DNA from: Bacilli bacterium
GTDB lineage: Bacteria; Bacillota_I; Bacilli_A; RFN20; CAG-826
Assembly (NCBI GenBank): GCA_024695235.1
Contig: JAILIP010000017.1
Location: 1-34,974 of the forward strand
Reading direction: 5' to 3'
DNA length: 34,974 nt
The position numbers and the translations under genes were made by a program. Position 1 is the stretch's first letter. Every line of letters begins with the position of its first letter. The notes beneath the pieces were generated by a model. That model saw nothing but the letters and a program-made list of their open reading frames with translations, was not told where the DNA came from and ran no database searches. Positions 7,190-23,446 of the stretch are shown piece after piece.

Positions 7190-7213
7190 TAAAAAAACGA
7201 GCGTGTGCTCGTT
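7190..7213 (-). terminator. Terminator of the cytidylyltransferase-GatZ-GatD operon
   Basis: Read on the minus strand, the stem AACGAGC / GCTCGTT with loop ACAC is followed by a run of T. The 5' arm begins inside the stop codon of the dehydrogenase gene. It lies back to back with the tRNA terminator. Confidence 0.8.
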
Positions 7214-8276
7214 ATTTAATTCTTGCATCGTTCATCACAAGGAGACAACGACCAACTTTTCCGTCTTTGCCTTTCTCAATGAACTCGAATGCTTTCATTG
7301 CATCTTCTAATTTGAATATTCCTGCAAAGTAATCTTTGGTGAATACAAGTTCTTTAGACAACAATTTTTCATTTGTTTCTTTCCACTCATCACCAGGGAA
7401 TGGATTTGAATAGCACATCCAGCTACCTTTAAGAGTTAATTCTTTACGGTTGATGATTTCCCATTGTTTTTGAGTGAATGTTACTTCTTTTGTAGGAGTA
7501 CCAACTAGGCACACATCAGCTTTGTTATTAGCAATGCTTAAAGAGAACAATATTGTTGGTTGAGTTCCAGCGGCATCAAAGACCATATCAAAGCCTTTGT
7601 CTAATTTGCTTGCTTTAAGAGAATCTTTGAATCCTTCTTCACTGGAAACAAAGACATTTTGAACACCCATTCTTTGATAGACATCTTTGTTATCAAGATT
7701 TCTTTCAAATAGAGTGATGGATTTTGCTCCATAAATCTTTGCCCAATTGGCAATTAATGTACCAATAGTACCTCCTCCAACAATCGCGACATTTTTACCA
7801 CGGATTGAGTCATATAACTTAATCGCGTGTAAGGCAACTGCGGATGGCTCAAATAAGGCGCAGAATGGATTAGCTATCTTGCTATCAATCTTGAAAAGAT
7901 TAGTTTTAGATATATCCATCATTTCACAATATGCACCATTCAAGGAAGAACCAATGAACTTATAGTTCTTGCACAATGCAAAATTACCATCTTTACAGTC
8001 TTCACATTCAAAGCATGGTTTTAAAGGTATACCTACAACAAAGTCACCTTTTTTAAAGGAATTAACACCTTTACCGACTTCAACAACTTCACCGAAGAAT
8101 TCATGTCCAAGGATAAGTGGATAGAAATGCGCTCCATTAGATAAAACACGTGGAATATCTGATCCACAAATACCACATGAATAAATCTTCACTCTCACAT
8201 TTTCATCTGAAAGTGGTGGTAATTGAATGTCTTCTATCTCAATATTACGATTAGCTTTTAATATAGCGGCTTTCAT
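7212..8276 (-). CDS. Zn-dependent alditol-phosphate dehydrogenase, GatD-like
   Basis: A 354-residue medium-chain Zn dehydrogenase most like galactitol-1-phosphate 5-dehydrogenase (GatD), which interconverts galactitol-1-phosphate and tagatose-6-phosphate with NAD. Catalytic Zn ligands are C37 (GICGSD), H58 and E59; four structural Zn cysteines lie at 88, 91, 94 and 102; a GGGTIG nucleotide loop follows. The segment DIPRVLSNGAH and the C-terminal KGSWMCYSNPFPG closely match GatD. A TTG start at 8294 is possible in frame, but the ATG at 8276, one base after the upstream stop and behind AAAGAG, gives the family's N-terminus. It is last in an operon with a cytidylyltransferase, the arrangement of TarI-TarJ, where the dehydrogenase works in the reducing direction to make an alditol phosphate. 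That direction is inferred here; a catabolic role is the alternative, but no PTS genes are present. Confidence 0.85.
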   Translation of the reverse strand: MKAAILKANRNIEIEDIQLPPLSDENVRVKIYSCGICGSDIPRVLSNGAHFYPLILGHEFFGEVVEVGKGVNSFKKGDFVVGIPLKPCFECEDCKDGNFALCKNYKFIGSSLNGAYCEMMDISKTNLFKIDSKIANPFCALFEPSAVALHAIKLYDSIRGKNVAIVGGGTIGTLIANWAKIYGAKSITLFERNLDNKDVYQRMGVQNVFVSSEEGFKDSLKASKLDKGFDMVFDAAGTQPTILFSLSIANNKADVCLVGTPTKEVTFTQKQWEIINRKELTLKGSWMCYSNPFPGDEWKETNEKLLSKELVFTKDYFAGIFKLEDAMKAFEFIEKGKDGKVGRCLLVMNDARIK

Positions 8277-8277
8277 A

Positions 8278-9591
8278 TTAGTCTCTTTCAACAAAGTAAT
8301 CTTTCATAACTGCGAAGTTATAGTCTTCGACAATTTGGACAACGCTATCTTTAAGAAGTGCCCTTGGTTTTGGTTCTAACATGCCTTTTAGGCATCTTGC
8401 GTATTGAATAGGCATATATTGTTTTAACATGCCCATTGGAATCTCAACATTTTCAAGATTCACTAAGAGCTTTTCAATTGCCTCTTCAATATTTGGAAGA
8501 GTCATATAGTATCTTGATCTATCAGAGAAACCATATTTACGATTGAGTTTCTTTTCTTCTTCACTTCCAAGATAGTATTTTTCCCAGTATTTAGGATTCT
8601 TGACCATCTCTTCTTCTAAGAGTTCGATGAAGTGAGCTTGTTTATCTTCTTTAACAAGTTCTTTTTCCATTCCTGATAATTGGAATAATGCTTCTCTAAG
8701 AGCAAATGTTAAAGCTGGTCCAACTTTTAAGATAGCAATACCATCTTGAACCATTTCTCTAAGGCTATTTGGTGATTGATAGTCAGTAGAGTGACCTTCA
8801 AAGACTAAATCTGGATAACGTTTCAAAGCACGGCAAAGTTTCTTTGCGTCTTCTCTATCATATCTTCTAACGGATGTATTGGAGAATTCGACACCTGGTT
8901 GGATAACAACGGCAACGATATTTTCCCATGCATCACCTAAACCGTATTCTAAGAATACTTTCTTATATGCATAGATTGTTTCTTCAAATTCACTTGGTGA
9001 AGTTACAACCATCTTTTCTTCTTTGGTTGCGCCTCCTGGAACAGGAACTTCACTTCCAATGACGTATACTGGGTGAACTGAATCAGGATATTTTTTAAGT
9101 CTTTCTGCAAAGGCTTTTTCACAAGCTTTGTATAGTCTTGCTCCACGAGCAGCAATGATTTCTGTAGATAACGGCTTATTAACATCATCATCACCTAATC
9201 TCATAGATGTATCTAAGTGAATCTTGGTGTATCCAGCTGAGACGAAAAGTCGCACTAAGACTTCTGCATTTGCCATAGCGACATCTGCAGGTTGATCACA
9301 CCATGGAAGAGGTCCTAAGTGATCTCCACCAAGAATGATTCTACTCATTGGAAAATCTGTTTTCTTAGCGATCTTTTCAACCATTTTGACGAAGTCAATT
9401 GGTTGCATTTTGGTGTACCCACCATTTTGATTAACTTGGTTAGATGTTGCTTCAATGACAACAAAGTCATCAAATTGTTTTGCTTGTTCTAAGATAGATT
9501 CAACAACGATCTTATTTGCACAGCAAAAAGAAGGAACACCTGAGTTAATACCTACTTTTCTTTTAGATAAAATCTTTTTAATTTGGTTCAT
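8278..9591 (-). CDS. GatZ/KbaZ family protein (tagatose-bisphosphate aldolase subunit-like or ketohexose 4-epimerase)
   Basis: A 437-residue member of the GatZ/KbaZ family. The family blocks IEATSNQVNQNGGYT, ILGGDHLGP, YVIGSEVPVPGG, VVIQPGVEF, GHSTDYQ and LKVGPALTFALREA are all present and the length is normal. In enterobacteria these proteins are the non-catalytic partners of the class II tagatose-1,6-bisphosphate aldolases GatY/KbaY; other family members have been reported to epimerise fructose and tagatose at C4. No GatY/KbaY partner lies in this window. In this operon it could supply tagatose-6-phosphate (from fructose-6-phosphate) to the dehydrogenase; that is inference. The ATG at 9591 has AGGAT seven bases upstream. 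It is nine bases from the cytidylyltransferase and one base from the dehydrogenase. Confidence 0.85.
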   Translation of the reverse strand: MNQIKKILSKRKVGINSGVPSFCCANKIVVESILEQAKQFDDFVVIEATSNQVNQNGGYTKMQPIDFVKMVEKIAKKTDFPMSRIILGGDHLGPLPWCDQPADVAMANAEVLVRLFVSAGYTKIHLDTSMRLGDDDVNKPLSTEIIAARGARLYKACEKAFAERLKKYPDSVHPVYVIGSEVPVPGGATKEEKMVVTSPSEFEETIYAYKKVFLEYGLGDAWENIVAVVIQPGVEFSNTSVRRYDREDAKKLCRALKRYPDLVFEGHSTDYQSPNSLREMVQDGIAILKVGPALTFALREALFQLSGMEKELVKEDKQAHFIELLEEEMVKNPKYWEKYYLGSEEEKKLNRKYGFSDRSRYYMTLPNIEEAIEKLLVNLENVEIPMGMLKQYMPIQYARCLKGMLEPKPRALLKDSVVQIVEDYNFAVMKDYFVERD

Positions 9592-9600
9592 ATAAAAATC

Positions 9601-10308
9601 CTACTTTAGATAATAATCTAATAATTGTTCATATAGCTGCATATCTCTTTGATATGTGATCTTTAAATTTAGTAAGTCAATTTCAACAATTGCCATCTTG
9701 ATATTGAATTCAAGTGCTAGAGCACCTGCGGAAGTCATTTGTTCTAATTTCTCTTTTGGAGTGGTGAAGTAAATATCCGCAATATTTTTAAATGTGAATC
9801 CTTCTGGAGACGCTCCGACAGCAATTTTCTTACGATCGATGACTGAGGAAAGGAATCCATCATCTGTTTTTAGATATGCTGTATCGAAGATATAGTTAGC
9901 TAATGTACCTGCTCCAAACTCTTTAATCTTACCGATGAGTTCAGATGTTGCTTTTTTATCAACAAATGGATGAGTCGCGTCATGGATGAGAATTACATCT
10001 TTATCTGCAGCATAATTCTTTAAGGCTTTTAAACCGTTATAGACAGATTCTGAACGGGTTTCTCCACCTTTAGTAACTGTGAGAACTTTCTTTAATCCAA
10101 AAGACTTGCAGTAATTCTTAGCATCATCAACATAAGCACCATTACAAACAATAACAACACCCTCAATTTCTTCCATTTCATCATATTTTTTTAATGGATA
10201 AATAAAAATTGGAGTGTTCCTAATTTCTACAAATTGTTTTGGCTTACTTGCTCCGAATCTAACGCCGGAACCGCCCATCATAAAGAGGACAAATGTCTTA
10301 CTTTTCAT
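9601..10308 (-). CDS. IspD/TarI-family cytidylyltransferase, probably for an alditol phosphate
   Basis: A 235-residue nucleotidyltransferase of the IspD/TarI family, which transfers CMP from CTP to methylerythritol-4-phosphate or ribitol-5-phosphate. The CTP-binding loop MGGSGVRFGASKPKQF (residues 11-26) is intact and LKIT near the C-terminus carries the usual Lys. Substrate-side motifs differ from the norm: the family HDA(A/V)RP is HDATHP, so its Arg is His, and TPQxF is SPEGF. It is first in an operon with a GatZ-like protein and a GatD-like dehydrogenase, paralleling TarI-TarJ. This favours a CDP-alditol product over the isoprenoid precursor made by IspD, but IspD cannot be excluded without a genome-wide look. 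The ATG at 10308 coincides with the predicted transcription start. Confidence 0.8.
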   Translation of the reverse strand: MKSKTFVLFMMGGSGVRFGASKPKQFVEIRNTPIFIYPLKKYDEMEEIEGVVIVCNGAYVDDAKNYCKSFGLKKVLTVTKGGETRSESVYNGLKALKNYAADKDVILIHDATHPFVDKKATSELIGKIKEFGAGTLANYIFDTAYLKTDDGFLSSVIDRKKIAVGASPEGFTFKNIADIYFTTPKEKLEQMTSAGALALEFNIKMAIVEIDLLNLKITYQRDMQLYEQLLDYYLK

Positions 10309-10432: not shown

Positions 10433-11920
10433 ATGGATGAAAAAGAAGAATTAGTTACTGCTACTGAACCCACTCCTCAAGAAGAAGATGGTGGCAGTGT
10501 AACTTCTAAAAGAAACATCAAGAATATCCTCATTGTCTTAATTGGCAATATCTTTACTATTGTTTCAAGTATTCTTGTTGGCTTTTTTGTTCCAAAAATG
10601 ATGAATGTCGATGCCTTTGGCTATTACAAGACATTCGCTTTATATTTTGAATACACAACATTTTTAAGTGTTGGTTTCTCGGATGGTATTTATCTTTTAT
10701 ATGCTGGTACATCATTTGAAAAACTAGATAAGCCACGCTTTAGACTATTCTCTAAGTTGCTTTTAGCATCTCAGGCAATACTATCAATTCTTGTATGTGT
10801 TGTATCAGTATTCTTCATTAAGACTGATTATGGCTTTATCTTCTTCTTTGTTGGCCTATCAATATTTCTATCTAATTTATTAAATTACTATCAGTATTTA
10901 TCTCGTGTCACTGAACGTTATGGTGAATTAACTGTTAGAGACATGCTGAAGTCAATCTTAAACATTGCTTCAGTAGTGGTTCTTTTTGTCCTTTACAAGA
11001 TGGGCAAAATGTCCACCCTTAACTTTAAGTTATACATCGTTATTTATGTATCAATTCTTGCATTTATTGTAATTATCTATTCGATTAATTATCGTCATAT
11101 CATTTTTGGAAAATCCACGAAGCTTAAAGATGATCTATCAATCATTGGCACTATCTTTAAGATGGGCATTCCTTTAATGATTGCTAACTTTATCAATAGC
11201 TTCATTCTCATCATTGATAAGCAATTCGTTAACGTTTTATTTGATAAGTATACATATGGCATATATGCGTTTGCATATAGCATGCTCGGATTTATCACAA
11301 CAGCGATATCTGCTATTTCAACAGTCTTGTTCCCTGTTTTGAAACGTTTAAATGAGAATGCTTTAAAAGAAAAATATGTTAACTTGATTTCCGCTATTAC
11401 GATGGTTGTTGCAATATGTTTAAGTGGTTATTTCCCAATCCTTTGGATTTGTCAAAGATACCTCAACAACTATATTGCCTCAATGGAGTTCTTCCGTATC
11501 ATTCTCCCAGGCCTTATGATCTGTAGCCCAATTACTATGATCATGTATAACTACTATAAGTCGATGGGTGCTATTGTTGAGTACTTCATCAAGAGTATTA
11601 TCGTCTTAGCAGTAGCCTTCTTATTTGACCTTGGAGCATACCTCATTTTTAAGAATACGGACTACGCTCCAAAAGCCATTTCAATCGCCTCAATTTTAAC
11701 ATTCGTTGTATGGTATGTTGTTGTCGAATTTAAGTTCTACCGTATGTGGAAACTTAACTATGTTAAAAACATGCTATACCTCGCATTAATTGCAGGTGCT
11801 TTCTATGGCATTACATACATTCCAAATATCTATGTTTCATTCGGTGTTTGGATGGGCGCTTTAATCGTTATAACTGTCCTTTTCCAATTCAAGATAATTA
11901 AGAACAAATTCCGCATCTAA
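10433..11920 (+). CDS. Polysaccharide (oligosaccharide-lipid) flippase, Wzx/MATE-like
   Basis: A 495-residue polytopic membrane protein with about 12-14 hydrophobic segments after a cytoplasmic, acidic N-terminal tail (residues 1-25). The opening NILIVLIGNIFTIVSSILVGFFVPKMMN and the YGIYAFAYSMLGFITTAIS region are typical of Wzx-type flippases that move undecaprenyl-linked repeat units across the membrane. It lies amid sugar-nucleotide and polymerase genes, which supports that role. No upstream start codon is possible because a stop precedes at 10418; a ribosome site is not evident (AAAGAGAT is about 15 bases away). The next gene starts 15 bases later behind AAAGGG. The transported glycan is unknown. 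Confidence 0.88.
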   Translation: MDEKEELVTATEPTPQEEDGGSVTSKRNIKNILIVLIGNIFTIVSSILVGFFVPKMMNVDAFGYYKTFALYFEYTTFLSVGFSDGIYLLYAGTSFEKLDKPRFRLFSKLLLASQAILSILVCVVSVFFIKTDYGFIFFFVGLSIFLSNLLNYYQYLSRVTERYGELTVRDMLKSILNIASVVVLFVLYKMGKMSTLNFKLYIVIYVSILAFIVIIYSINYRHIIFGKSTKLKDDLSIIGTIFKMGIPLMIANFINSFILIIDKQFVNVLFDKYTYGIYAFAYSMLGFITTAISAISTVLFPVLKRLNENALKEKYVNLISAITMVVAICLSGYFPILWICQRYLNNYIASMEFFRIILPGLMICSPITMIMYNYYKSMGAIVEYFIKSIIVLAVAFLFDLGAYLIFKNTDYAPKAISIASILTFVVWYVVVEFKFYRMWKLNYVKNMLYLALIAGAFYGITYIPNIYVSFGVWMGALIVITVLFQFKIIKNKFRI

Positions 11921-11935
11921 AAAGGGTTAAAAACA

Positions 11936-12940
11936 ATGAACAAGTATTACATTATGTATCCATCTGGTAGTGTTGATGACTACATGTTTTTAGATGCTGA
12001 TAATTTGACATATATTGACGCTAAAGGTAAAAAGCCAAAAAATGGTTTTTCTCGTTTCCTTAAAAAGATCAATTTATCTCGTAAGTTAAATGCTATAATT
12101 CATCTTCCATTTAAGAAGAAATGGTATGACTTAAAAGGACTTGGAGAAGATGAGAATACTCAATACTATCTTTTCATCTTAGCAAGCTCATTTATATATG
12201 TTGATATGCATATGATTAAGAAGATGTTTTCTAAAGAAAATATGCATCTTAGACTCATCTTACTTGATCCTATTACATCCAATACACCTGTTCCAGAAAG
12301 AACACGTCTTGCCTTAAAGAAAATTCAATTTGAAAAGATATATACATATGACTTAGTTGAAAGTCAAACATATGGCTATAAATACATGAATGAGTATCTA
12401 TATACCGATACACTCGTCGAAGGAATTAAACCTACTCATGAATATGATTTATATTTCCTTGGTAGATTCAAAAGTGGTCGTGGTGAAAATGTCTTCACTC
12501 TTGCTGAGAAAATGCATGAAAAAGGCGTCAATTTTAGATGCAAAATGCAAGTCACTTCCGCAGGAATTAAAGACGCTAATTTAACAGAACTTAAAGATAA
12601 AGATATCATCGAATACTTTGATGATTTCATTATATATAATGACGTTGTTAAAGAATGCGCGAAGAGTAACTGCATCCTTGAGTTAATTCAAGATACTGAA
12701 TCTGATACAACATTAAGATATTTTGAAGCAGTTGTTTTGAATAAGAAATTACTCACCAATAACAAGAATATTGTCAACATGAGATACTACGATCCTAAAT
12801 ATATGAAAATATTTACTTCTTTAGATGACATTGATTATGAATGGGTCAAAAAAGAAGAGCATGTTGACTATGGTTATAAGCATGATTTCTCATCAAAAAT
12901 TTTCTTTGATGAAGAAATAAAATTGATAGAAAAGTGCTAA
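11936..12940 (+). CDS. Putative glycosyltransferase (GT-B-like), unrecognised family
   Basis: A 334-residue soluble protein, not confidently recognised. The central segment YDLYFLGRFKSGRGENVF and the C-terminal CILELIQDTESDTTLRYFEAV followed by NKKLLTNN look like the two halves of a GT-B glycosyltransferase: a second Rossmann start and an acidic nucleotide-sugar binding stretch with family-specific E residues. No signal peptide or membrane helix is apparent. It follows the flippase and precedes the aminotransferase in the same direction, and is the only candidate sugar transferase of the locus apart from the TagB-like protein. A role in adding one sugar of the repeat unit is a reasonable inference; the sugar is unknown. 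Confidence 0.6.
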   Translation: MNKYYIMYPSGSVDDYMFLDADNLTYIDAKGKKPKNGFSRFLKKINLSRKLNAIIHLPFKKKWYDLKGLGEDENTQYYLFILASSFIYVDMHMIKKMFSKENMHLRLILLDPITSNTPVPERTRLALKKIQFEKIYTYDLVESQTYGYKYMNEYLYTDTLVEGIKPTHEYDLYFLGRFKSGRGENVFTLAEKMHEKGVNFRCKMQVTSAGIKDANLTELKDKDIIEYFDDFIIYNDVVKECAKSNCILELIQDTESDTTLRYFEAVVLNKKLLTNNKNIVNMRYYDPKYMKIFTSLDDIDYEWVKKEEHVDYGYKHDFSSKIFFDEEIKLIEKC

Positions 12941-13039: not shown

Positions 13040-14188
13040 ATGAGCGATAAAAAACAAATCCCACTATTCAAGGTCTATATGGCCCCTGAAGTTGATGAAC
13101 CTTTATTAAAAGTTTTACATAGTGGTTATATTGGAGAAGGTGAAGAAGTAGTTTCTTTTGAAAAGGCTTTAAAAGAATACTTTGGTACTCCATATCTAAC
13201 CACTCTTAATAATGGTACTGCTGGTTTACACCTTGCATACCATATGGCCCTTCACCAAGATGGCCCAAAGACATGGTTCAACTCCAATGATGCTGAAGTC
13301 ATTTCAACACCTATTACATGTACTGCTACAAATGAACCAATCATTGCCAATGGTGCAAAGATTGTTTGGGCAGACGTTGATCCAATCACTGGTAGCATTG
13401 ATCCAGATGATATCGAAAGAAAGATCACTCCAAAGACCAAAGCTATCACAATGGTCCACTGGGGCGGTAACCCATGCGATATTGAGCGTATAAATGCTAT
13501 TGCTAAGAAGCATAATCTCAAAGTCATCGAAGATGGTGCTCACGCAATGGGCATGGAATACAAAGGAAAAATGGTCGGTAATTGGTCAGACTATACCATG
13601 ATTTCTCTTCAAGCTATCAAACACATTACAAGTGTTGATGGTGGTATTCTCATGATGAAATCAGAGAAGGACTATGAAAGAGCAAAATTACTCCGTTGGT
13701 ATGGTATTGATAGAACAATCCGTGAAGGCATCGACCTCCGTTGCGAACTCGATGTTCCAGAATCAGGTTATAAGTTCCACATGAACGATGTCTGCGCTGT
13801 CATTGGACATACAAACTTCAATCATGTTAAGGAAATTCTAAAAGCTCAAAGAGATAATGCTAAGTATTACTACGAAGCATTCAAAGGACATGATAATATC
13901 ATTTGCTGTCCAGAAAACCCAGATGGCAAGAGTTCATTCTGGCTATTCACGATTCACCTCAAAAACAGAGATGAAGTTATGGCAAAGATGAAAGAAGAAG
14001 GCATTATGACTTCTAAAGTCCACGCTCGTAACGATACTCACTCAATGTTTAAAGACTCCTACGATCCAAATCTTCCAGGTGTTGAATCATTCAATAGAAC
14101 TCACCTCTGTATCCCAGTAGGTTGGTGGGTCACCAAAGAAGACAGAGAAAGAATCGCTAGCTTGATTATTAAATACGCAGCAAAATAA
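13040..14188 (+). CDS. DegT/DnrJ/EryC1/StrS-family sugar aminotransferase
   Basis: A 382-residue PLP enzyme of the DegT/DnrJ/EryC1/StrS family, which aminates keto-sugar nucleotides. The PLP-binding Lys is K194 in LQAIKHIT, with the Asp of EDGAHAMG (D165) and the NNGTAGLH phosphate-binding stretch (57-64). The N-terminal SGYIGEGEEVVSFEKAL is the usual substrate-loop region. The ATG at 13040 follows AAGGAGG by eight bases, the strongest ribosome site of the locus, and the gene seems to have its own promoter. The keto-sugar it would need is not made by any other gene in the window, unless a dehydratase acts on GDP-heptose elsewhere; so the product is open. A terminator follows. Confidence 0.88.
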   Translation: MSDKKQIPLFKVYMAPEVDEPLLKVLHSGYIGEGEEVVSFEKALKEYFGTPYLTTLNNGTAGLHLAYHMALHQDGPKTWFNSNDAEVISTPITCTATNEPIIANGAKIVWADVDPITGSIDPDDIERKITPKTKAITMVHWGGNPCDIERINAIAKKHNLKVIEDGAHAMGMEYKGKMVGNWSDYTMISLQAIKHITSVDGGILMMKSEKDYERAKLLRWYGIDRTIREGIDLRCELDVPESGYKFHMNDVCAVIGHTNFNHVKEILKAQRDNAKYYYEAFKGHDNIICCPENPDGKSSFWLFTIHLKNRDEVMAKMKEEGIMTSKVHARNDTHSMFKDSYDPNLPGVESFNRTHLCIPVGWWVTKEDRERIASLIIKYAAK

Positions 14189-14234: not shown

Positions 14235-15383
14235 CTATATCTTAAGTATTTCTTTTAACTTATTAGTTAACTTCTTAGAATACTCGCCATCTAAGTCAGT
14301 GTTAAGCATCTTATTGAATTCATCTGCAAGAGATGAGGATGAATGAGCGATTTTCTTTTTTAAATCGTCGATAGAAAGCGAAACATCCTTATGCTTATAT
14401 ATTTGACTTGCCTCATCAAATAATGGCTCAGATTTAATGTATTCATCATAATCTGGTACATATAAAATAACTGGTTTTTTTGTTATGGCAAAATCAGTAG
14501 CAATACTAGAGTAATCAGTAATCAAGATATCAGTATCTAATAGTAAAGCCTGTCCATCCATTTTGGAGGCATCAATGACGTTGTCATTTTCTTTAATCTC
14601 AATGTTTTCAGTAACTGGATGAAGTCTAACATATAACTTGATGTTATTTTCTTTTAATAAATCTAATCCTTCTTTCGAAGAGAAGAAGTCGATTACATTT
14701 TTGATGTTGATGTTTTGCTCTTCAACTTTGCGATATGTTGGAGCATATAGCATAACCTTATGGTCTTTTTTAGATTCCTTCTTATCAAAAAAGATATCGT
14801 TACGTGGCTGACCATTAATGACATACTTAGCTTTGCTTCTTTTAAAACGAAAATCCCTCGCAAAGCATTCAAAAGCATATTCAGATGTTGCAACAGTTAA
14901 GTTGCGGTGGACATATGAGAAGAAATTACGATAGATCTTTTTAACGATATTGTCGTGGAAGTTTCTATCCGCATAGTACATCTCTTTAAAGCCCACACCA
15001 TGCCAAAGAGCAACAACGTATGAGCGATAGTTATAAATGTGCTCACCAAAATCATCAATACCATTTGTGTAAAAAGACACACCTGCTTTTTTAGCAATCT
15101 TCTTGGCTTCTTTTGAGCCTATAATGACACTATTAAGATTTTCTGATGCTAACTTCTTTTGAAGTTCTTCATTTTGAACGAAGTAAATTGCCTTAATGTC
15201 TTTCTCATTTTTAGAAACATATTCAAAGAGATATCTAGAATTATCTTGATATCTACCTAAATATGATGAGAATATCCAAAGCTTTTTGTCTCTTTTATGT
15301 CCAACACACTTATGAAAGAAATTAAAAAGCCAATTCTTTTTACGTGAGGCATTGATGTTAGTAATTGAAGCATTGCTAGCCAT
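14235..15383 (-). CDS. CDP-glycerol:polyol-phosphate transferase family (TagB/TagF-like)
   Basis: A 382-residue protein of the CDP-glycerol glycerophosphotransferase family, which adds glycerol- or ribitol-phosphate units from CDP-alditols to surface glycans at the membrane face. Family features are VALWHGVGFKEM, the mid-protein APTYR, and the C-terminal ITDYSSIATDFAITKKPVILY with YVPDYDEY. The N-terminus is basic, suitable for peripheral membrane binding, with no helix. It is the last gene of the heptose/polymerase operon, two bases after the polymerase gene. Its presence means a CDP-alditol donor is needed; the only CDP-forming enzyme in the window is the cytidylyltransferase at 9601, whose product could be its substrate. 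Glycerol-phosphate from a tagD gene elsewhere is the alternative. Confidence 0.85.
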   Translation of the reverse strand: MASNASITNINASRKKNWLFNFFHKCVGHKRDKKLWIFSSYLGRYQDNSRYLFEYVSKNEKDIKAIYFVQNEELQKKLASENLNSVIIGSKEAKKIAKKAGVSFYTNGIDDFGEHIYNYRSYVVALWHGVGFKEMYYADRNFHDNIVKKIYRNFFSYVHRNLTVATSEYAFECFARDFRFKRSKAKYVINGQPRNDIFFDKKESKKDHKVMLYAPTYRKVEEQNINIKNVIDFFSSKEGLDLLKENNIKLYVRLHPVTENIEIKENDNVIDASKMDGQALLLDTDILITDYSSIATDFAITKKPVILYVPDYDEYIKSEPLFDEASQIYKHKDVSLSIDDLKKKIAHSSSSLADEFNKMLNTDLDGEYSKKLTNKLKEILKI

Positions 15384-15385
15384 AT

Positions 15386-16786
15386 TTATTCTCTTTTCCT
15401 AGAAATGCTACAAACACCATTACCAACAAGGATGAAGAATAAACCAGTTGAGACAATAGCGACAGATGATTCAGAGAAGAAGTTTTCTACGAAAACAGCT
15501 GATAATAATATAATTGGCATCAACACTAGTCTATCTTTTGTAATTGAGTAACGGTGGAACATGATGAAGATGATGTAAATGACAAATAAGGCAAATATAG
15601 CAAAGCCAATATAGCCAATTTGTGATGTCAAAACACCAATAAAGCTTTCGCCTGTCAATCTATCGATGTTTGTCTTTGCAGATAGCATAACGCCTGCTTT
15701 ACCTATACCCGCACCAAAGAAGGATGATCCAAATACACCTTTAATAAAACCATCAATGTGAATGAGAAGTGATGAATTCGGGAAGAATCTATTGGCGATC
15801 AATAACACTATTGGGAAGGCAATAAGGGCTAAACCAAGCAAGATAAAGAATAATATCTTAAATGTCTTGAACTTGATGTTTTTGAAGACGTAGTAAATGA
15901 AATAAATGATGTATGAAAGGTAAATACCTTTAGATAATGTCATCAATGACACGACAAAGAATAATAAACTTAAAAGCTTCTTATGTCTTGAATTAGAAAA
16001 TCTTGTCACTGCAAAGCAGATGAATAAGAAGTGACCAGTTGTTAAAGGATCAGCAAATGTCGAAACAAGTCTTCTAACGATCTTTCCTGTTAGTTCAACA
16101 TAGTCCCAAGTATAGAAGTTAAGTGGTACTCCATGATATAGATCAAAAGCGACGCCTTTGTTCTCTTGATATTTAGCGATAGGAAGTGTGACCCAAATCG
16201 TGTCCTTCAAGAAGAATATTTCAATTAGACCAAAGAAACAGACGATTATTCCAAAAGTAATAACCAAATCAAAGAAACTTCTTTTTTGTCTTGGAGACAA
16301 GTCTAAGTAATAACCAAAATAGAAACAGACAAATGGAAGTAATAGTTGTCTAATTGCTAATACTTTTGAGTAGAATTCAGCATCTGAAACAAAGAATGAA
16401 AAAGTCAAAAGTAATAAGAATGCAATTGATAACACTTTGTGCAATTGGTGATTCCAACCTTTTCGTTTTACGAACATATTCTTAATAACAAATATGTAAA
16501 GCATTATTTCTTTACTTAAAGTAAATATCGTATTTGTTGTTTCGGTGAACTTCTCCGCACACAGTATCAACGTTATATTTTGCACAAATATAAAGCATAA
16601 GAAGAAAATCAAAAACTTAAAGTTTGATTTAAAGAGTAAATAAAAGCCAACACTATAAGTGACAATTATTGATAGGATTGGGGAGATGTAAGTTAATACA
16701 GGAATAACAATGCATGTCAAAAGAATGATATGCCATTGTTTTAAAAGCACATTTATTCTTCTAGGACTGCTTGCTACTGCTTCCAT
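15386..16786 (-). CDS. O-antigen ligase/polymerase-like membrane protein (Wzy-type)
   Basis: A 466-residue polytopic membrane protein with about 11-12 hydrophobic helices and a larger loop around residues 205-245. The stretch RRLVSTFADPLTTGHF resembles the conserved Arg-rich segment of O-antigen ligase and Wzy polymerases (the family usually shows R..G.F.DPN...), and FGSSFFGAGIGKAG fits its second conserved region. With the flippase at 10433 this would make a Wzx/Wzy-type pathway that assembles a repeat-unit polysaccharide outside the cell. No ribosome site is clear before the ATG at 16786, eight bases after the GmhA gene, so coupling to upstream translation is likely. Confidence 0.78.
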   Translation of the reverse strand: MEAVASSPRRINVLLKQWHIILLTCIVIPVLTYISPILSIIVTYSVGFYLLFKSNFKFLIFFLCFIFVQNITLILCAEKFTETTNTIFTLSKEIMLYIFVIKNMFVKRKGWNHQLHKVLSIAFLLLLTFSFFVSDAEFYSKVLAIRQLLLPFVCFYFGYYLDLSPRQKRSFFDLVITFGIIVCFFGLIEIFFLKDTIWVTLPIAKYQENKGVAFDLYHGVPLNFYTWDYVELTGKIVRRLVSTFADPLTTGHFLFICFAVTRFSNSRHKKLLSLLFFVVSLMTLSKGIYLSYIIYFIYYVFKNIKFKTFKILFFILLGLALIAFPIVLLIANRFFPNSSLLIHIDGFIKGVFGSSFFGAGIGKAGVMLSAKTNIDRLTGESFIGVLTSQIGYIGFAIFALFVIYIIFIMFHRYSITKDRLVLMPIILLSAVFVENFFSESSVAIVSTGLFFILVGNGVCSISRKRE

Positions 16787-16794
16787 AAATTAAA

Positions 16795-17442
16795 TTATTT
16801 TCCGAAGAAATACTCCTCAAGCATTAAACAAATAGAGTGATAGATAGGTAAATTTAATTCTTGAATTACATAAACCTCATCACTAGGCGCCTTAATTAAG
16901 ACATCTGAAATTTCATTAAGGTAACCGCCATTAGCTCCGCTAAGTCCGATAACTTTCATGCCTTTGGCTTTTGCACATACACATGCATAACCAACGTTTT
17001 TAGAGTTACCAGAAGTGGAGATGGCTAGTAAGACATCACCTTTTTTGCCATAGCAATTTACTTGTTGGGCAAATGTTAGTAAGCCACCATTTTCTACATC
17101 GTTAACAAAAGCGGTGTTAAGACCTTGGTGGTTAATTAAAGATATAGCAGGTAAACCTTGTTGAAGCTTTTCAGCAAGTTCTTTACCTCTAACTGGATCA
17201 ATAGATAACAATTCTTTCTTGAAAGAATCATTTAACTCTCTTTTGAGTTTGAATCCTTTCATGAGTTCACCAACAATGTGTTCAGCATCGGCTGAAGAAC
17301 CGCCATTACCGGCCACTAAAAGTTTTCCGCCTTTTTCAAAACATCCTTTTAATGTTTCAAAGGCTTTCAATATATTTTCCTTTTGACTAGAAAGTTGAGG
17401 ATATCTTTGTAAAAGATCTTCTAATATTTTGTTTTCTTTCAT
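16795..17442 (-). CDS. gmhA: Sedoheptulose-7-phosphate isomerase
   Basis: A 215-residue SIS-domain isomerase converting sedoheptulose-7-phosphate to D-glycero-D-manno-heptose-7-phosphate, the first step of nucleotide-heptose synthesis. GNGGSSADAEHIVGEL (45-60) is the GmhA signature; AISTSGNSKN is the SIS phosphate loop and PSDEVYVIQELNLPIYH the C-terminal metal/active-site helix. The ATG has AAGGAGAT at the right distance, inside the end of the preceding fusion gene. It is third in the operon with the kinase and the guanylyltransferase-phosphatase fusion, so the whole GDP-heptose pathway is encoded in three genes. Confidence 0.94.
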   Translation of the reverse strand: MKENKILEDLLQRYPQLSSQKENILKAFETLKGCFEKGGKLLVAGNGGSSADAEHIVGELMKGFKLKRELNDSFKKELLSIDPVRGKELAEKLQQGLPAISLINHQGLNTAFVNDVENGGLLTFAQQVNCYGKKGDVLLAISTSGNSKNVGYACVCAKAKGMKVIGLSGANGGYLNEISDVLIKAPSDEVYVIQELNLPIYHSICLMLEEYFFGK

Positions 17443-17443
17443 G

Positions 17444-18694
17444 TTATCTATCTCCTTTGCCTAATATCTCGTTAATAATGGTTTCAAAATTATTATTTAC
17501 AACTAATTTTGACACACATCCAGCGTTTTGACCACATAAAACATCGTTATCACTATCACCGACCATATATGACTTTGATAGATCGATATTGAAGTCTTTT
17601 GCAGCTTTAAGTATCATTCCTGGTTTTGGTTTACGACATTCACAGTCGATTTTAAGTTCTTTGACTTCACCCTCGTATCCACTGTGTGGATGATGTGGGC
17701 AAAAGTATATCGCATCAAGATATGCTCCTTCTTTCCCAAGAAGTGTTTCCATCTTGTTATGAATCTCATTAAGTTCTTCGAATGTAACTTCTCCTCTAGC
17801 AATAACTGGTTGATTTGACACAACTATTGCAAGGTATCCAGAATCGTTGATTCTTTTAATTGAAGATGCTACTCCATCAAGAAGTTCAAAATCATCAATA
17901 TTTGTTAGGAAACCAACATATTTATTTATTGTTCCATCTCTATCTAAAAAGATAGCTTTTTGCTTATTACGCAAATTCTTAGCCTTCACCAATCCACTTT
18001 CAAAGTCTTCACGGACTTTTTCAAGTCTATCAGGTGTGCCCATGTCTTTGACATACTCTGGGGAATCATAGGCATACATAACACCTTTACCAGCTAGTGG
18101 TTTTAATATTTGTCTATCGAGATCTACCTTAGGTGTATTTGGTCTATTCTCTAAGAGTTTCTTAGAAAGAATATGTAATCCAGCATTTACTCTATTCTTG
18201 TACCAGGTAGGTCTAAGATCTTCTTTGTTAAGCCACTTTGTGACTACTTTGTTTTCGTCAACAAAGATTAGACCACTATCATATGGATGTGAATTTGGAT
18301 GAGTGAATAATGTAGCTAAGCCACCATGAGACTTATGATATTCAACGAATCGATTGAAATCGATATCAAACATTGCATCAGCATTTAAAAGTAAAAAGTC
18401 ATCACTGAGCTTATCTTTTATTTCATAAAGTGCTCCAGCATTACCTAGAGGTTCTTTTTCAAAGAAGTACTCTATGTTCACCCCAAACTTAGAGCCATCA
18501 CCAAAATAATTCATGATGATGTTTCCAAGATGAGAGACAGTCAAAATGATATCTTTAAAACCCTGTTCTTTTAAACAGAGTATTTCATGTTCAAGAATAG
18601 GTTTACCCCCGATGGGGATCATTGGTTTAGGAATATCAGAAATAACAGAGGCAATGCGAGTGCCTTTGCCACCTGCCATTATGACAACTTTCAT
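17444..18694 (-). CDS. Heptose-1-phosphate guanylyltransferase fused to heptose-bisphosphate phosphatase (HddC-GmhB)
   Basis: A 416-residue two-domain enzyme. Residues 1-235 are a GT-A nucleotidyltransferase (MAGGKGTRI at 6-14, KPMIPIGGKP, NADAMFD as metal site) matching HddC, which makes GDP-D-glycero-D-manno-heptose. Residues 245-416 are a HAD phosphatase with nucleophile D251 and acid D253 (FLDRDGTIN), VVSNQP, and a GmhB Zn loop CPHHPHSG ... CECRKPKPG, which removes the 7-phosphate from heptose-1,7-bisphosphate. The two steps are consecutive in the alpha-heptose route (phosphatase, then guanylyltransferase). Each is usually a separate protein of similar length to its half here. Its start overlaps the kinase stop by one base (TAATG). 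The guanylyl rather than other NTP specificity is inferred from the GHMP kinase context. Confidence 0.9.
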   Translation of the reverse strand: MKVVIMAGGKGTRIASVISDIPKPMIPIGGKPILEHEILCLKEQGFKDIILTVSHLGNIIMNYFGDGSKFGVNIEYFFEKEPLGNAGALYEIKDKLSDDFLLLNADAMFDIDFNRFVEYHKSHGGLATLFTHPNSHPYDSGLIFVDENKVVTKWLNKEDLRPTWYKNRVNAGLHILSKKLLENRPNTPKVDLDRQILKPLAGKGVMYAYDSPEYVKDMGTPDRLEKVREDFESGLVKAKNLRNKQKAIFLDRDGTINKYVGFLTNIDDFELLDGVASSIKRINDSGYLAIVVSNQPVIARGEVTFEELNEIHNKMETLLGKEGAYLDAIYFCPHHPHSGYEGEVKELKIDCECRKPKPGMILKAAKDFNIDLSKSYMVGDSDNDVLCGQNAGCVSKLVVNNNFETIINEILGKGDR

Positions 18695-19725
18695 TATTCT
18701 TCTTCCTCTTCTACGACGTCTTCAAGATTACCTTTAATGTCATATACTTCAGGAGCGTAGTAAACTGTTCTTGTTCCGTAGTTTTCAAATTCAAATGGAA
18801 CTTCCATTAAATCAAGAGCTCTTCTAACAGCGTTTTGTTTTCTTTTTGGAACGTAGAAGAGAAGGAATCCTCCGCCACCAGCACCTAAAAGTTTTCCTCC
18901 AAGTGCTCCAGCAGCAATTCCTTTTTCATACAATTCATCAATAGCTGAGGTAGTAACTTCTTTACTAATACCTCTTTTTAATTGCCACGTTTTATCAAGG
19001 AGTCTACCAAAATCATCAAGATCTCTTTCTTTGTTTGTTAAAACATCTTGAGCATCATCAACTAATGCTAGAATCTTTTCGAGTTGTTTTTCTTTTTCTT
19101 TCATTGATGATTTTGCTGCTTCTTGAATTTCGGCCGAAAAACGAGTAAATCCTGTAAAGAACAACAATAAGTTGTTGTCTAATTGTTTCTTTCTTTCAGG
19201 AGAAATAACTATTGGAGTAATTTTGAACTCATCACCTTCAAAATCAATACGATTAAATCCACCATAGGAGGCAGCTATTTGATCTTGCCATCCACCAGCT
19301 TCATTGCACATTACTCTTTCAACATATATAGCGTCCTTAGCAAGTTTTTCTTTAGAAACATATTTTCCTTTTAATGAATAAAACGCATTAAGTAGACCAA
19401 CCGCAAATGTGGAAGATGTACCTAAACCTGTTTTAGCAGGTAAGTCAGCATCATATGAAATATGAAGTTCATGCATATCAAGAAGCTTCATAGCGTTTCT
19501 GACCATTGGGTGTTCAATGTCATCAACGCTACTAACTCTTTCTTGCTTGGAATACTCAATTTCAGTTGTGTATTCAAAGAATCTTGGCAAGTGTCTAACA
19601 GTAACATAGACATACTTATCAAATGTAGTGGATATAACAGATCCCTTACGTTCTTTAAAGAACTCTGGCATATCTGTTCCTCCGCCGAAGAAGGACATTC
19701 TGAATGGTGTTTTAGTGATAATCAT
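18694..19725 (-). CDS. hddA: D-glycero-D-manno-heptose-7-phosphate 1-kinase (GHMP family)
   Basis: A 343-residue GHMP-family sugar kinase that phosphorylates heptose-7-phosphate at C1. The N-terminus TPFRMSFFGGGTDMPEFF is typical of HddA and fucokinase-like members; the ATP loop is LPAKTGLGTSSTFAVGLL; the C-terminal motif is LLGAGGGGFLLFY. Use of a GHMP kinase, not the PfkB-type HldE, points to the alpha-anomer, GDP-linked heptose pathway. Its C-terminus ends in an unusual acidic run of five Glu. The ATG has GAGG seven bases upstream. It is first in the minus-strand operon and divergent from the HTH-CapE gene. Confidence 0.92.
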   Translation of the reverse strand: MIITKTPFRMSFFGGGTDMPEFFKERKGSVISTTFDKYVYVTVRHLPRFFEYTTEIEYSKQERVSSVDDIEHPMVRNAMKLLDMHELHISYDADLPAKTGLGTSSTFAVGLLNAFYSLKGKYVSKEKLAKDAIYVERVMCNEAGGWQDQIAASYGGFNRIDFEGDEFKITPIVISPERKKQLDNNLLLFFTGFTRFSAEIQEAAKSSMKEKEKQLEKILALVDDAQDVLTNKERDLDDFGRLLDKTWQLKRGISKEVTTSAIDELYEKGIAAGALGGKLLGAGGGGFLLFYVPKRKQNAVRRALDLMEVPFEFENYGTRTVYYAPEVYDIKGNLEDVVEEEEE

Positions 19726-19975: not shown

Positions 19976-21169
19976 ATGACACTTAAAGAAATACGCAAAA
20001 GTTGCAAATTAACTCAAAAGGAAGCTGCTGACTTAGTTGGTGTCTCTCAACGTAGTTTTGTTGAGTATGAAAACAATGAAAAGAAAGCAGATCAACTTAA
20101 ACTTGAAAGAATTAAAGAAAAACTAATGGAATTTATCGCTAAAGACACATCCATCTTAAAAGATAAGGTTCTTCTTATCACTGGTGGTACTGGTTCATTT
20201 GGCCATGCAGTTGTGGATAGATTCTTAAACACTGATATTAAAGAAATCAGAATTCTTTCACGTGATGAAAAGAAACAAGATGATATGCGCAAGGCATACA
20301 ATAACTCCAAACTTAAATTCTATATTGGAGATGTTCGTAACCTTGATAGCATCATAGATGCTTTTAAAGGCGTTGACTATGTTTTCTCAGCGGCCGCTTT
20401 AAAACAAGTTCCATCTTGTGAATTCTATCCAATGGAAGCTGTGAGAACCAATGTTATTGGTAGTGATAATGTTATTACCGCCTGTGTTCGTAATGGAGTT
20501 AAAAAAGCTATTTTCTTATCTACAGATAAGGCAGCATATCCAATTAACGCAATGGGTATTTCAAAAGCCTTAATGGAAAAGAACGTTATCGCTCGTAGTA
20601 GACAACTACTTCCTGGCGATACAGTTCTTTGTCTAACTAGATATGGAAACGTTATGGCAAGCCGTGGAAGCGTCATTCCTTTATTCTTAAATCAAATTCA
20701 TGAAGGTAAACCGATTACCATCACCAATCCAGAGATGACCAGATTCATGATGACTCTTGATGATGCGGTTGATCTTGTCTTATATGCCTTTGAACATGGT
20801 GAGCAAGGTGACTTGTTCGTTCAAAAAGCACCAGCTGCTACAATTGAAACACTTGCTAAAGCAATCATTGAACTAACAGGTTCGAAGACAGGTATCACAT
20901 ATATTGGTACACGTCATGGTGAGAAATTATATGAAACACTTGTCACTCAAGAAGAAATGATTAAATCAGTAGATTTAGGAAACTTCTTCTGTATTAAAGC
21001 AGATAACCGTGATCTTAACTATGATAAGTATTTCTCTAAAGGAAACAAGAAACTCAACCTTGGAGAAAGTTATACATCGCACAATACTGGTAGACTTGAT
21101 GTAGAAGGTATGAAAAAACTTCTTAAGAAGTTAGAATTATTCGGTGGAGAGGTGAGACAACATGACTAA
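19976..21169 (+). CDS. capE: UDP-GlcNAc 4,6-dehydratase/5-epimerase (CapE) with N-terminal XRE helix-turn-helix
   Basis: A 397-residue fusion. Residues 1-55 are an XRE-type helix-turn-helix (LTQKEAADLVGVSQRSFVEYEN). Residues 60-397 are a full CapE/FnlA-type dehydratase: the NAD loop GGTGSFG (70-76), STDK (182-185), and M193/K197 in YPINAMGISK, where Met replaces the usual short-chain-dehydrogenase Tyr, as in CapE. The enzyme starts UDP-N-acetyl-L-fucosamine synthesis from UDP-GlcNAc. The family normally begins at ILKDKVLLITGG, so the first 59 residues are extra. The ATG follows GAGGTG. There is no internal ATG with a ribosome site at the enzyme start, and the frame is continuous, so one fused protein is expected. 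The same domain heads the glutamine synthetase at 23447. Autoregulation is inferred. Confidence 0.9.
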   Translation: MTLKEIRKSCKLTQKEAADLVGVSQRSFVEYENNEKKADQLKLERIKEKLMEFIAKDTSILKDKVLLITGGTGSFGHAVVDRFLNTDIKEIRILSRDEKKQDDMRKAYNNSKLKFYIGDVRNLDSIIDAFKGVDYVFSAAALKQVPSCEFYPMEAVRTNVIGSDNVITACVRNGVKKAIFLSTDKAAYPINAMGISKALMEKNVIARSRQLLPGDTVLCLTRYGNVMASRGSVIPLFLNQIHEGKPITITNPEMTRFMMTLDDAVDLVLYAFEHGEQGDLFVQKAPAATIETLAKAIIELTGSKTGITYIGTRHGEKLYETLVTQEEMIKSVDLGNFFCIKADNRDLNYDKYFSKGNKKLNLGESYTSHNTGRLDVEGMKKLLKKLELFGGEVRQHD

Positions 21170-22286
21170 GAAAATTAAAGTTGTGACCATCATTGGCACC
21201 CGTCCAGAAATCATTCGTCTTTCTGAAGTAATCAAAGCCCTTGATAAAGATGATGCTTTTGAACATATCTTAGTTCATACAGGACAAAACTATGACTACG
21301 AACTCAACCAGGTCTTCTTTGAAGAACTCGATTTAAGAGCGCCTGATTACTATCTCAATTGTGCTGGTTCACATTTAGGTGAAACAATTGGCAATGCAAT
21401 TGCTAAATCATACGAACTATTAAAAGAACTTAAACCAGATGCAGTGCTCATCTTAGGAGATACAAACTCTGCTTTATGTGCGATATCCGCTAAACGTCTT
21501 AAACTTCCTATTTTCCACATGGAAGCAGGAAATAGATGTGGTGATTGGAATGTTCCAGAAACAATCAATCGTAAAATCGTTGATCATATATCTGATATCA
21601 ATCTTCCGTACACAAATCACGCATACGCAAACCTTATGAAAGAAGGCATTGAACCAAAATATACATTTGTCACTGGCTCACCGATGCTTGAAGTTTTAAA
21701 TGCTAACAACGAGAAGATTGAAAAGAGCGAAGTTTTAAAAGAACTCAAATTAGAAAAAGGCAAATATATCGTTGTCTCTTCTCATAGAGAAGAAAATATT
21801 GATATTGAAAAGAATTTCAATCAACTTATGCCTGCGATTAACGCTATTGCAGAGAAATACAAAGTACCTGTAATCTTCTCAACACACCCACGCACAAGAA
21901 AGCGTTTAGAAGCTAATAGCTTCAAGATGCATCCACTTATTCAAAATCTCAAACCATTAGGATTCCTTGAATATGTTAAGCTACAAGAAAATGCATTGTT
22001 TGTTCTTTCTGATAGTGGAACTCTTACTGAGGAAAGCGCTATGAGACACTTCCCAGCTGTTTTAATTAGAACATCTACTGAAAGACCAGAAGGCGTTGAA
22101 GCTGGATCAATTGTTGTCTCAGGTATCACCGAAAAAGAAATTATGGAAGCAATTGAAAAAGAACTCGCTAATTATAAGAAAGCATCAACTCCCGAAAATT
22201 ATGATGTGAAAGATGTCTCTTCTAGAGTGCTTAAAATCATCAAAGAAAAGATTGATGTTGTTAATAAGGAAATTTGGGATAAATAA
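21162..22286 (+). CDS. capG: UDP-N-acetyl-hexosamine C2-epimerase (CapG/FnlC-like), UDP-FucNAc synthesis
   Basis: A 374-residue cytoplasmic epimerase of the UDP-GlcNAc 2-epimerase superfamily. GTRPEIIRLSEV at the N-terminus, HTGQNYDYELNQVFF, GDTNSALCAISAKR, HMEAGNRCGDWNVPETINRKIVDH and SSHREENID are the diagnostic blocks; the HMEAGNRC form with INRKIVDHISDINLPY is that of CapG/FnlC/WbjD, which converts UDP-2-acetamido-2,6-dideoxy-talose to UDP-N-acetyl-L-fucosamine. It overlaps the end of capE by eight bases and its ATG follows GGAGAGGTGAG. Together with capE and capF it completes the three-step pathway. The gene order here is E-G-F rather than the E-F-G of Staphylococcus aureus. Confidence 0.92.
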   Translation: MTKKIKVVTIIGTRPEIIRLSEVIKALDKDDAFEHILVHTGQNYDYELNQVFFEELDLRAPDYYLNCAGSHLGETIGNAIAKSYELLKELKPDAVLILGDTNSALCAISAKRLKLPIFHMEAGNRCGDWNVPETINRKIVDHISDINLPYTNHAYANLMKEGIEPKYTFVTGSPMLEVLNANNEKIEKSEVLKELKLEKGKYIVVSSHREENIDIEKNFNQLMPAINAIAEKYKVPVIFSTHPRTRKRLEANSFKMHPLIQNLKPLGFLEYVKLQENALFVLSDSGTLTEESAMRHFPAVLIRTSTERPEGVEAGSIVVSGITEKEIMEAIEKELANYKKASTPENYDVKDVSSRVLKIIKEKIDVVNKEIWDK

Positions 22287-23377
22287 TGAACGTATTAGTA
22301 ACAGGATCTAACGGATTTATTGGTAAACATATGTGTCTACATTTTAGAAGATGTGGTCATGAAGTTTTAGGATACGATTTAGATACCAAAGAAGATTTAA
22401 AAGAACTTGTATCTAAAGCAGATTTTGTTATCCATCTTGCAGGAATTAACCGCCCATTAACAAATGAAGAATTCTATGACGGAAATACAAACTTCACAAA
22501 GAAACTTGTAGATGTAATTAAAGAATCTAGAAAGAATCTTCCAATTATCATGTCTAGTTCAATTCAAGCTGAACTCGATAATGACTATGGTAAATCCAAA
22601 AAGATGGGTGAAGACTATTTGTTTAGTAGTGGTCTTCCGGTATATGTCTTTAGACTTGCAAATGTTTTCGGTAAGTGGTGTAGACCAAACTACAATTCAG
22701 CTTGCGCAACATTTTGTTATAACATCGCTCATGACTTACCAATTATGGTGAGAGATAGAGAATATGTAGTGCACTTCAACTATGTTGAAGATATCGTTGA
22801 TACATTTATTTCTATCATCAATGATAAAGAACATAAAGGAAGCCAAGATATCTTATCTGTAAAACCAGTATACGATTGCTCATTAGGAAAACTCGCAGAC
22901 ACTCTTTACTATTTCAAAAAAGAAATTGAATCAGATAGACACTTGCCAATCATCAAAGATGAGTTTGAATTAAAACTCTTCAAAACTTTCTGCGATTATC
23001 TAAGTGATGAAGGATGTAGTTATAACTATGCCTCGGATAATAGAGGTTCTTTTGAAGAACTATATAAATCCAAGAAATATGGACAAATAAGTGATAACGT
23101 TGCATTTCCAGGAATCACTAAAGGTGGTCATTACCATACATATAAAAAAGAAATCTTCTATACAGTTATAGGAGAATCTGAAATAAAACAACGCGATATT
23201 AAGACAAATGATGTGATTATTAACAAAGTTAAAGGTAGTAATCCTGAGCCAATTGCTATTCGCGTTGGATACACTCATCAAATAACTAATATCGGTAAAG
23301 AAAATAGTCACACAATCATGTGGATTTCTGAGATTTATAATCCTGAAACACACGATACTTATAAAGAAGAAGTATAA
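22286..23377 (+). CDS. capF: Bifunctional epimerase/reductase with cupin domain (CapF/FnlB-like), UDP-FucNAc synthesis
   Basis: A 363-residue two-domain enzyme. Residues 1-245 are an NAD(P)-binding short-chain fold (VTGSNGFIGKH), with DYGKSKKMGED carrying the Tyr-Lys pair. Residues about 255-363 are a cupin, FPGITKGGHYHTYKKEIF and GYTHQITNIG, holding the His metal ligands. CapF epimerises in the cupin and reduces in the N-terminal domain, the middle steps to UDP-N-acetyl-L-fucosamine. The start overlaps the capG stop (TAATG). No terminator is visible after it, so read-through into the glutamine synthetase gene is possible in addition to that gene's own promoter. Confidence 0.92.
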   Translation: MNVLVTGSNGFIGKHMCLHFRRCGHEVLGYDLDTKEDLKELVSKADFVIHLAGINRPLTNEEFYDGNTNFTKKLVDVIKESRKNLPIIMSSSIQAELDNDYGKSKKMGEDYLFSSGLPVYVFRLANVFGKWCRPNYNSACATFCYNIAHDLPIMVRDREYVVHFNYVEDIVDTFISIINDKEHKGSQDILSVKPVYDCSLGKLADTLYYFKKEIESDRHLPIIKDEFELKLFKTFCDYLSDEGCSYNYASDNRGSFEELYKSKKYGQISDNVAFPGITKGGHYHTYKKEIFYTVIGESEIKQRDIKTNDVIINKVKGSNPEPIAIRVGYTHQITNIGKENSHTIMWISEIYNPETHDTYKEEV

Positions 23378-23397: not shown

Positions 23398-23443
23398 TTG
23401 ACACAAAAGTCTCCTTAATTTATATTAAATGCAGGAGATTTTT
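23398..23443 (+). promoter_or_regulatory. Strong promoter and overlapping dyad of the HTH-glutamine synthetase gene
   Basis: -35 TTGACA (23398-23403), 17-base spacer, -10 TATATT (23421-23426): the best sigma-A promoter of the window. TCTCCT (23410-23415, in the spacer) and AGGAGA (23433-23438, at the start point and ribosome site) are inverted arms centred on the -10, flanked by AAAA and TTTT. A protein bound across both would block the polymerase, which fits an autorepressor. Confidence 0.7.
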
Positions 23444-23446
23444 ATT

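Follow-up and report, generated by a model that had tools for sequence, protein, structure and literature searches.

What does a polysaccharide locus of a Bacilli bacterium gain from an operon that joins a cytidylyltransferase to relatives of the galactitol enzymes GatZ and GatD? The locus lies in a 34,974-nucleotide stretch of contig JAILIP010000017.1 (assembly GCA_024695235.1), referred to here as the window. Three consecutive open reading frames on its minus strand (10308–7212) encode, in this order, an IspD/TarI-type cytidylyltransferase (CT), a GatZ/KbaZ-like protein and a GatD-like dehydrogenase (DH). The CT and GatZ genes are separated by 9 bp, and the GatZ and DH genes are in near-contact or overlap (an alternative TTG start of the DH gene at 8294 gives 360 aa); therefore, the three genes form one operon. 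A first-pass annotation of this DNA had described such an operon within a polysaccharide locus that lacks phosphotransferase system (PTS) genes and the aldolase gene gatY. Its coordinates and family assignments were confirmed, and neither PTS genes nor GatY were found in the window. The comparisons below suggest that the operon probably makes a CDP-activated hexitol for a surface polysaccharide, most likely CDP-galactitol, with reduction preceding cytidylylation.

The CT belongs to the PF01128 superfamily (109 bits; cut-off, 27). Its scores lay below the curated cut-offs of both IspD (TIGR00453; 137.8 bits, cut-off 181.3) and the ribitol-5-phosphate cytidylyltransferase TarI (NF001183; 130.5 bits, cut-off 166). 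The AlphaFold2 model of the protein (pLDDT 92) has the IspD/TarI fold, with Z values of 26–28 to solved structures and a tie between IspD and TarI. A tblastn search with the CT against plasmids led to the Escherichia coli record LR890578.1. The window and plasmid CTs both have the motifs HDxTHP and VGASPEGF, where HDxxRP and TPQxF are found elsewhere. A profile of these two sequences retrieved 51 genome loci, 50 of which held clear relatives (36–53% identity). When 86 CTs were placed on a tree, 48 of those loci grouped with the window and the plasmid in one clade with a long stem (SH-aLRT 100), apart from IspD, TarI-like and short-chain dehydrogenase/reductase (SDR)-paired CTs. In a search for the CT across the same phylum, every match besides the window was of the TarI, IspD or SDR-paired type and had different motifs, and a scan of viral sequences gave no match. 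A Leptospira plasmid CT (35%) was rejected as a relative of the clade, having the motif HDAARP and neither GatZ nor GatD nearby.

The general CTP-site and catalytic residues of IspD (R20, K27, D106, T140, R157, and K213 in E. coli IspD numbering) are kept in the clade. The changes R109H, T165S, and Q167E are nearly fixed in it (47–48 of 48 CTs), whereas all other CTs keep R109 and nearly all keep Q167. Two of these positions, R109 and T165, sit at the methylerythritol-phosphate pocket in E. coli IspD; thus, the clade-specific changes fit a new acceptor.

The 50 loci had been picked by the CT peptide (mostly MMGGSG[VT]R), independently of GatZ or DH, and span Bacillota, Coriobacteriia, and Methanobrevibacter. 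GatZ was present in 47 of them and a GatD-like DH in 45; GatY and the tested PTS genes were found in none. In two of the loci without GatZ (L097 and L124) the CT lies near a contig end, and the third (L140) is a 4.3 kb contig. A survey of co-occurrence with TagB/TagF-like genes, as proposed in the first-pass annotation, gave a polyol-phosphate-type transferase (TagF or LicD) in 45 of the 50 loci. At least nine gene orders were observed; therefore, the linkage survived shuffling. By comparison, GatZ was found in 0 of 29 loci of other CT-family genes (Fisher p ~1e-18, with relatedness ignored and shorter control flanks of 1.5 kb), and the contrast remained extreme when only loci with GatZ directly adjoining the CT were counted. 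In four Methanobrevibacter loci (L103, L108, L110, and L095), an SDR replaces GatD beside the CT and GatZ; LicD or TagF genes lie in the vicinity. Cultured carriers include Parvibacter caecicola DSM 22242 (L117) and Slackia exigua ATCC 700122 (L139). Other GatZ genes of the same class had no CT beside them; an apparent CT match near GatZ in L012 and L034 was a HAD protein.

On an actinobacterial contig (L124:3824–5452) the two CT types occur together: a CT of the window clade adjoins a GatD-like gene, and a CT of the other type lies near an SDR. In a Ruminococcus metagenome-assembled genome (L128:9992–14474), the trio stands alone outside any obvious polysaccharide locus and is followed by a membrane protein that resembles an acyltransferase and has no family match.

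The E. coli plasmid LR890578.1 provided a second view of this association. It carries TagF-like genes, a CT of the window clade, gatZ and gatD together, without PTS genes; the same locus occurs in a second E. coli isolate (NZ_JBTZOT010000002.1), whose CT looks damaged near the start. The plasmid gatZ, gatY, and gatD show 68, 64, and 58% identity, respectively, to the K-12 galactitol operon. Plasmid GatZ scores 775 and so clears the GatZ equivalog cut-off of 579; plasmid GatD is at the GatD cut-off (548.4 against 550). The approximately unbiased (AU) test rejected a single origin for plasmid GatZ and the remaining CT-linked GatZ (p = 0.0002), which makes plasmid GatZ an independent recruitment; with the plasmid excluded, a single origin of CT-linked GatZ was not rejected. 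A first quick tree had given three origins; under a better model only the separate origin of the plasmid gene was forced. So the window CT clade became linked to galactitol-type GatZ on two or more occasions, in one case to near-genuine galactitol-1-phosphate/tagatose-6-phosphate enzymes. The plasmid pairing is the best evidence on the substrates and anchors tagatose-6-phosphate and galactitol-1-phosphate in the pathway. The polysaccharide locus of these plasmids (L091 and L093) is rich in insertion sequences (IS) and contains several TagF-like genes along with the CT, gatZ, gatY, and gatD.

The two galactitol-type proteins of the window retain the residues expected for such chemistry. E. coli GatZ and KbaZ turn fructose-6-phosphate into tagatose-6-phosphate in cells, and seven active-site residues have been named (PMC11907403). 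All seven (C20, E44, D87, H88, E171, H257, and K279 of E. coli GatZ) are kept in window GatZ and in all 46 related GatZ of the alignment. These residues and the PF08013 domain place the protein in the family; its score for the AgaZ/GatZ equivalog (TIGR02810) was 493.8 bits, below the cut-off of 568.8. The DH is a zinc-dependent medium-chain dehydrogenase (MDR) with ADH_N and ADH_zinc_N domains. Its closest solved structure is E. coli GatD (4a2c, 222 bits; the runner-up had 121), and by far its best NCBIfam family is galactitol-1-phosphate 5-dehydrogenase (NF007642; 289.5 bits, below the cut-off of 550). Both GatD zinc sites (C38, H59, E60, E144 and C89, C92, C95, C103) are kept. Judging by these matches, the DH belongs, among MDR dehydrogenases, to the GatD lineage and not to that of TarJ.

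The host genome is 0.99 Mb in size and 70% complete, which limits all statements of absence made for it. A second CT gene passes the IspD cut-off (189.6 against 181.3) and lies about 9 kb from IspF on the same contig. Because the window CT stays at 137.8 bits, under this cut-off, it is, by these scores, not the IspD of this genome. A single class II aldolase was found, on a different contig; for GatZ and for PF04464, the one gene detected in each case lies in the locus described here. EIIC-GAT had no match, and the set expected of an operon for galactitol catabolism, in which gatZ and gatD accompany GatY and the PTS component EIIC-GAT, was not present. The first-pass annotation had named two grounds for abandoning its proposal: a CT active only on methylerythritol-4-phosphate in a genome with MEP genes and no second ispD, or dehydrogenase expression tied to galactitol use. 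The separate IspD near IspF excludes the former, and nothing in this genome points to uptake of galactitol. GatZ was absent among 58 near relatives of the host; thus, the trio was probably gained by transfer in the host lineage.

From the observed gene content, fold, catalytic residues, clade, co-conservation, and independent recruitment we infer the following reactions, with their stereochemistry and order, and the resulting polymer. GatZ would epimerize fructose-6-phosphate at C4 to tagatose-6-phosphate by retro-aldol and aldol steps on a metal, and the DH, running in reverse with NAD(P)H, would reduce it to galactitol-1-phosphate. The CT would then use CTP to form CDP-galactitol and pyrophosphate. 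The TagF-like enzyme encoded at 14235 would move galactitol-phosphate onto a growing surface polysaccharide, which probably also holds heptose and L-FucNAc. The interpretation in the first-pass annotation is partly supported, the activities of the three proteins being predicted. Its core, an epimerase, dehydrogenase, and CT that supply a CDP-hexitol to a TagF-type transferase, gained strong support because of the co-conservation, the CT clade signature, the intact catalytic residues, and the independent recruitment of gatZ and gatD in E. coli.

Several observations weigh against the proposed pathway. The Methanobrevibacter SDR that stands in GatD's place is related to SDRs paired with CDP-ketose-type CTs, and reduction may therefore come after cytidylylation. 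GatZ and DH of the window share 41 and 35% identity, respectively, with their E. coli counterparts and score under the equivalog cut-offs, so their substrates could have shifted. The E. coli plasmid retains gatY though the PTS genes are gone, and is riddled with IS remnants. In addition, galactitol phosphate in a surface polymer was not reported in the open literature searched.

The first of these points bears on a rival that leads to the same product in another order. The CT would act on tagatose-6-phosphate to give CDP-6-tagatose, which the GatD-like DH or the Methanobrevibacter SDR would then reduce, on the model of Campylobacter jejuni HS:5 and pneumococcal Mnp1/Mnp2. The CT clade does occur beside either an MDR or an SDR. 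The best plasmid relative of the Methanobrevibacter SDR (39% identity) comes from Streptomyces and is itself the partner of a CT. The Methanobrevibacter SDR matches 8v4g/8v4h and UDP-glucuronate decarboxylases about equally well; the deposited name of 8v4g/8v4h is putative nucleotide-sugar dehydratase, and they are probably the C. jejuni HS:5 enzyme. However, the CTs paired with such SDRs belong to other clades, with the motifs HDxVRP and APQ/TPQ/TPE, the known substrate of GatD is a free hexitol phosphate, and the GatD recruited by the E. coli plasmid is near-genuine. Even though the C. jejuni HS:5 CT accepts fructose-6-phosphate and rejects glucitol-6-phosphate (PMC10918830), we regard cytidylylation before reduction as rather unlikely.

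The low identities and scores of GatZ and DH would also allow a different CDP-alditol, namely CDP-talitol, if reduction ran with the opposite outcome, or a CDP-pentitol (for example of arabinitol or ribitol) derived from a 4-epimerized pentulose phosphate. The retention of the seven GatZ residues and of the GatD zinc sites, the closeness of the plasmid copies to true galactitol enzymes, and the separate grouping of TarI-type CTs make such a product improbable. That the genes are what is left of galactitol or tagatose catabolism, next to a stray paralogue of IspD and with no biosynthetic link, might be suggested by families named for catabolism and by catabolic GatZ loci of the same class, many of which have PTS genes. 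This reading is already contradicted by the locus survey, in which GatZ and CT stayed together through shuffled orders while GatY and the tested PTS genes never appeared, and by a host genome with a separate IspD and no EIIC-GAT match; we give it almost no credence. CDP-galactitol formed from free galactitol-1-phosphate thus remains the preferred reading.

CDP-hexitols as such are already known, and the statement of the first-pass annotation that no such teichoic-type precursor was known was too strong. CDP-6-D-glucitol has been shown for C. jejuni HS:5 (HS5.18/HS5.17), where the CT takes the ketose phosphate first and an SDR then reduces the CDP-ketose, and CDP-mannitol has been described for Streptococcus pneumoniae 35A (Mnp1/Mnp2) (PMC10918830). 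Both systems share with the window a PF01128 CT with a reductase, a start from fructose-6-phosphate, and a CDP-hexitol for surface polysaccharide; HS:5 also has heptose genes. However, they lack a C4 epimerase, and their reductase is an SDR acting on CDP-fructose. Where HS5.18/HS5.17 combine a PF01128 CT with a PF01370 SDR, the window pairs its CT with an MDR. SDR-paired CTs from plasmids lie outside the window clade; HS5.18 and Mnp1 themselves are absent from the tree.

The first-pass annotation had also spoken of TarI–TarJ logic, which stands as an analogy only. TarI/TarJ, which supply CDP-ribitol for wall teichoic acid, share the CT fold, the pairing of a CT with a medium-chain zinc dehydrogenase, and TagF-type use. 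Unlike them, the window has a CT under the TarI cut-off and in another clade, a DH of the GatD line, and, as almost always in its clade, an added GatZ. With E. coli gatYZABCD the window shares the GatZ and GatD chemistry, here predicted to run in reverse, but the set is joined to a CT and polyol-phosphate-type transferases and lacks the PTS GatABC, GatY, and the regulator. The fold and CTP-site residues are those of IspD of the methylerythritol phosphate (MEP) pathway, unlike the substrate-pocket residues.

PMC10918830 makes no mention of tagatose or galactitol. In the open literature searched we found nothing on CDP-galactitol, or on galactitol with a cytidylyltransferase in the relevant sense; the galactitol of PMC5116648 is a methylation-analysis derivative. 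A GatZ-containing route to a CDP-alditol is thus apparently undescribed in the open literature searched, subscription literature being outside the search. Perhaps a parallel 3-epimerase route to another CDP-alditol exists on the Parabacteroides distasonis plasmid NZ_OY725754.1 (L148:4301–9252), where a CT, an SDR, a ribulose-phosphate 3-epimerase-like gene, and two CDP-glycerol glycerophosphotransferase-like genes stand in a row. The motif of its CT, TPEAF, is part-way to that of the window clade, of which it is a weakly placed tree neighbour.

The operon and the surrounding polysaccharide genes are listed in the table.

Table. Features of the window around the CT–GatZ–DH operon.
Feature	Coordinates	Strand	Details
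GatD-like Zn dehydrogenase (DH), predicted tagatose-6-phosphate (or CDP-tagatose) reductase	7212..8276	-	354 aa from ATG
GatZ/KbaZ-like protein, predicted fructose-6-phosphate/tagatose-6-phosphate 4-epimerase	8278..9591	-	437 aa; PF08013 562 bits
CT, IspD/TarI-fold cytidylyltransferase of distinct clade	9601..10308	-	235 aa; PF01128; motifs HDATHP, GASPEGF
Wzx-type flippase of the locus	10433..11920	+	PF13440/PF01943, weak
WaaS/CpsH-family glycosyltransferase	11936..12940	+	NF053598, exceeds cut-off
DegT/PseC-like aminotransferase	13040..14188	+	PF01041
TagF-like transferase, predicted user of CDP-alditol	14235..15383	-	PF04464 149 bits
Many-membrane-span protein, probable Wzy polymerase (inferred)	15386..16786	-	no family match
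GmhA-like, HddC-GmhB fusion, HddA-like kinase; probable GDP-heptose supply	16795..19725	-	three genes
FnlA-, WecB/FnlC-, WbcJ/FnlB-like genes; probable UDP-L-FucNAc supply	19976..23377	+	

The translation of the TagF-like gene contains the motifs WHG and RLHP. In the fusion gene (17444–18694), an HddC-like nucleotidyltransferase is joined to a GmhB-like phosphatase. An N-terminal helix-turn-helix domain (HTH_3) is present on both the FnlA-like dehydratase (19976–21169) and a glutamine synthetase (23429–25000), an odd fusion shared by two genes of one region. The neighbour of the operon at 5042–7012 encodes an AMP-binding (acyl- or aminoacyl-adenylating) enzyme with a C-terminal carrier domain.

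It seems somewhat likely that the CDP-galactitol pathway has spread horizontally among Bacillota, Coriobacteriia, Methanobrevibacter (where another reductase has taken over), and a plasmid of enterobacteria, and that it feeds an undescribed class of galactitol-phosphate surface polymers in gut microbes. The clade signature permits reassignment in genomes annotated with IspD and GatZ. If the proposal is true, galactitol would join the short list of CDP-activated alditols (glycerol, ribitol, arabinitol, mannitol, and glucitol), and GatZ, a family of aldolase “chaperones,” would gain a biosynthetic role as a 4-epimerase. Many gut bacteria and methanogens, including cultured ones, would then be predicted to carry galactitol phosphate in their surface glycans.

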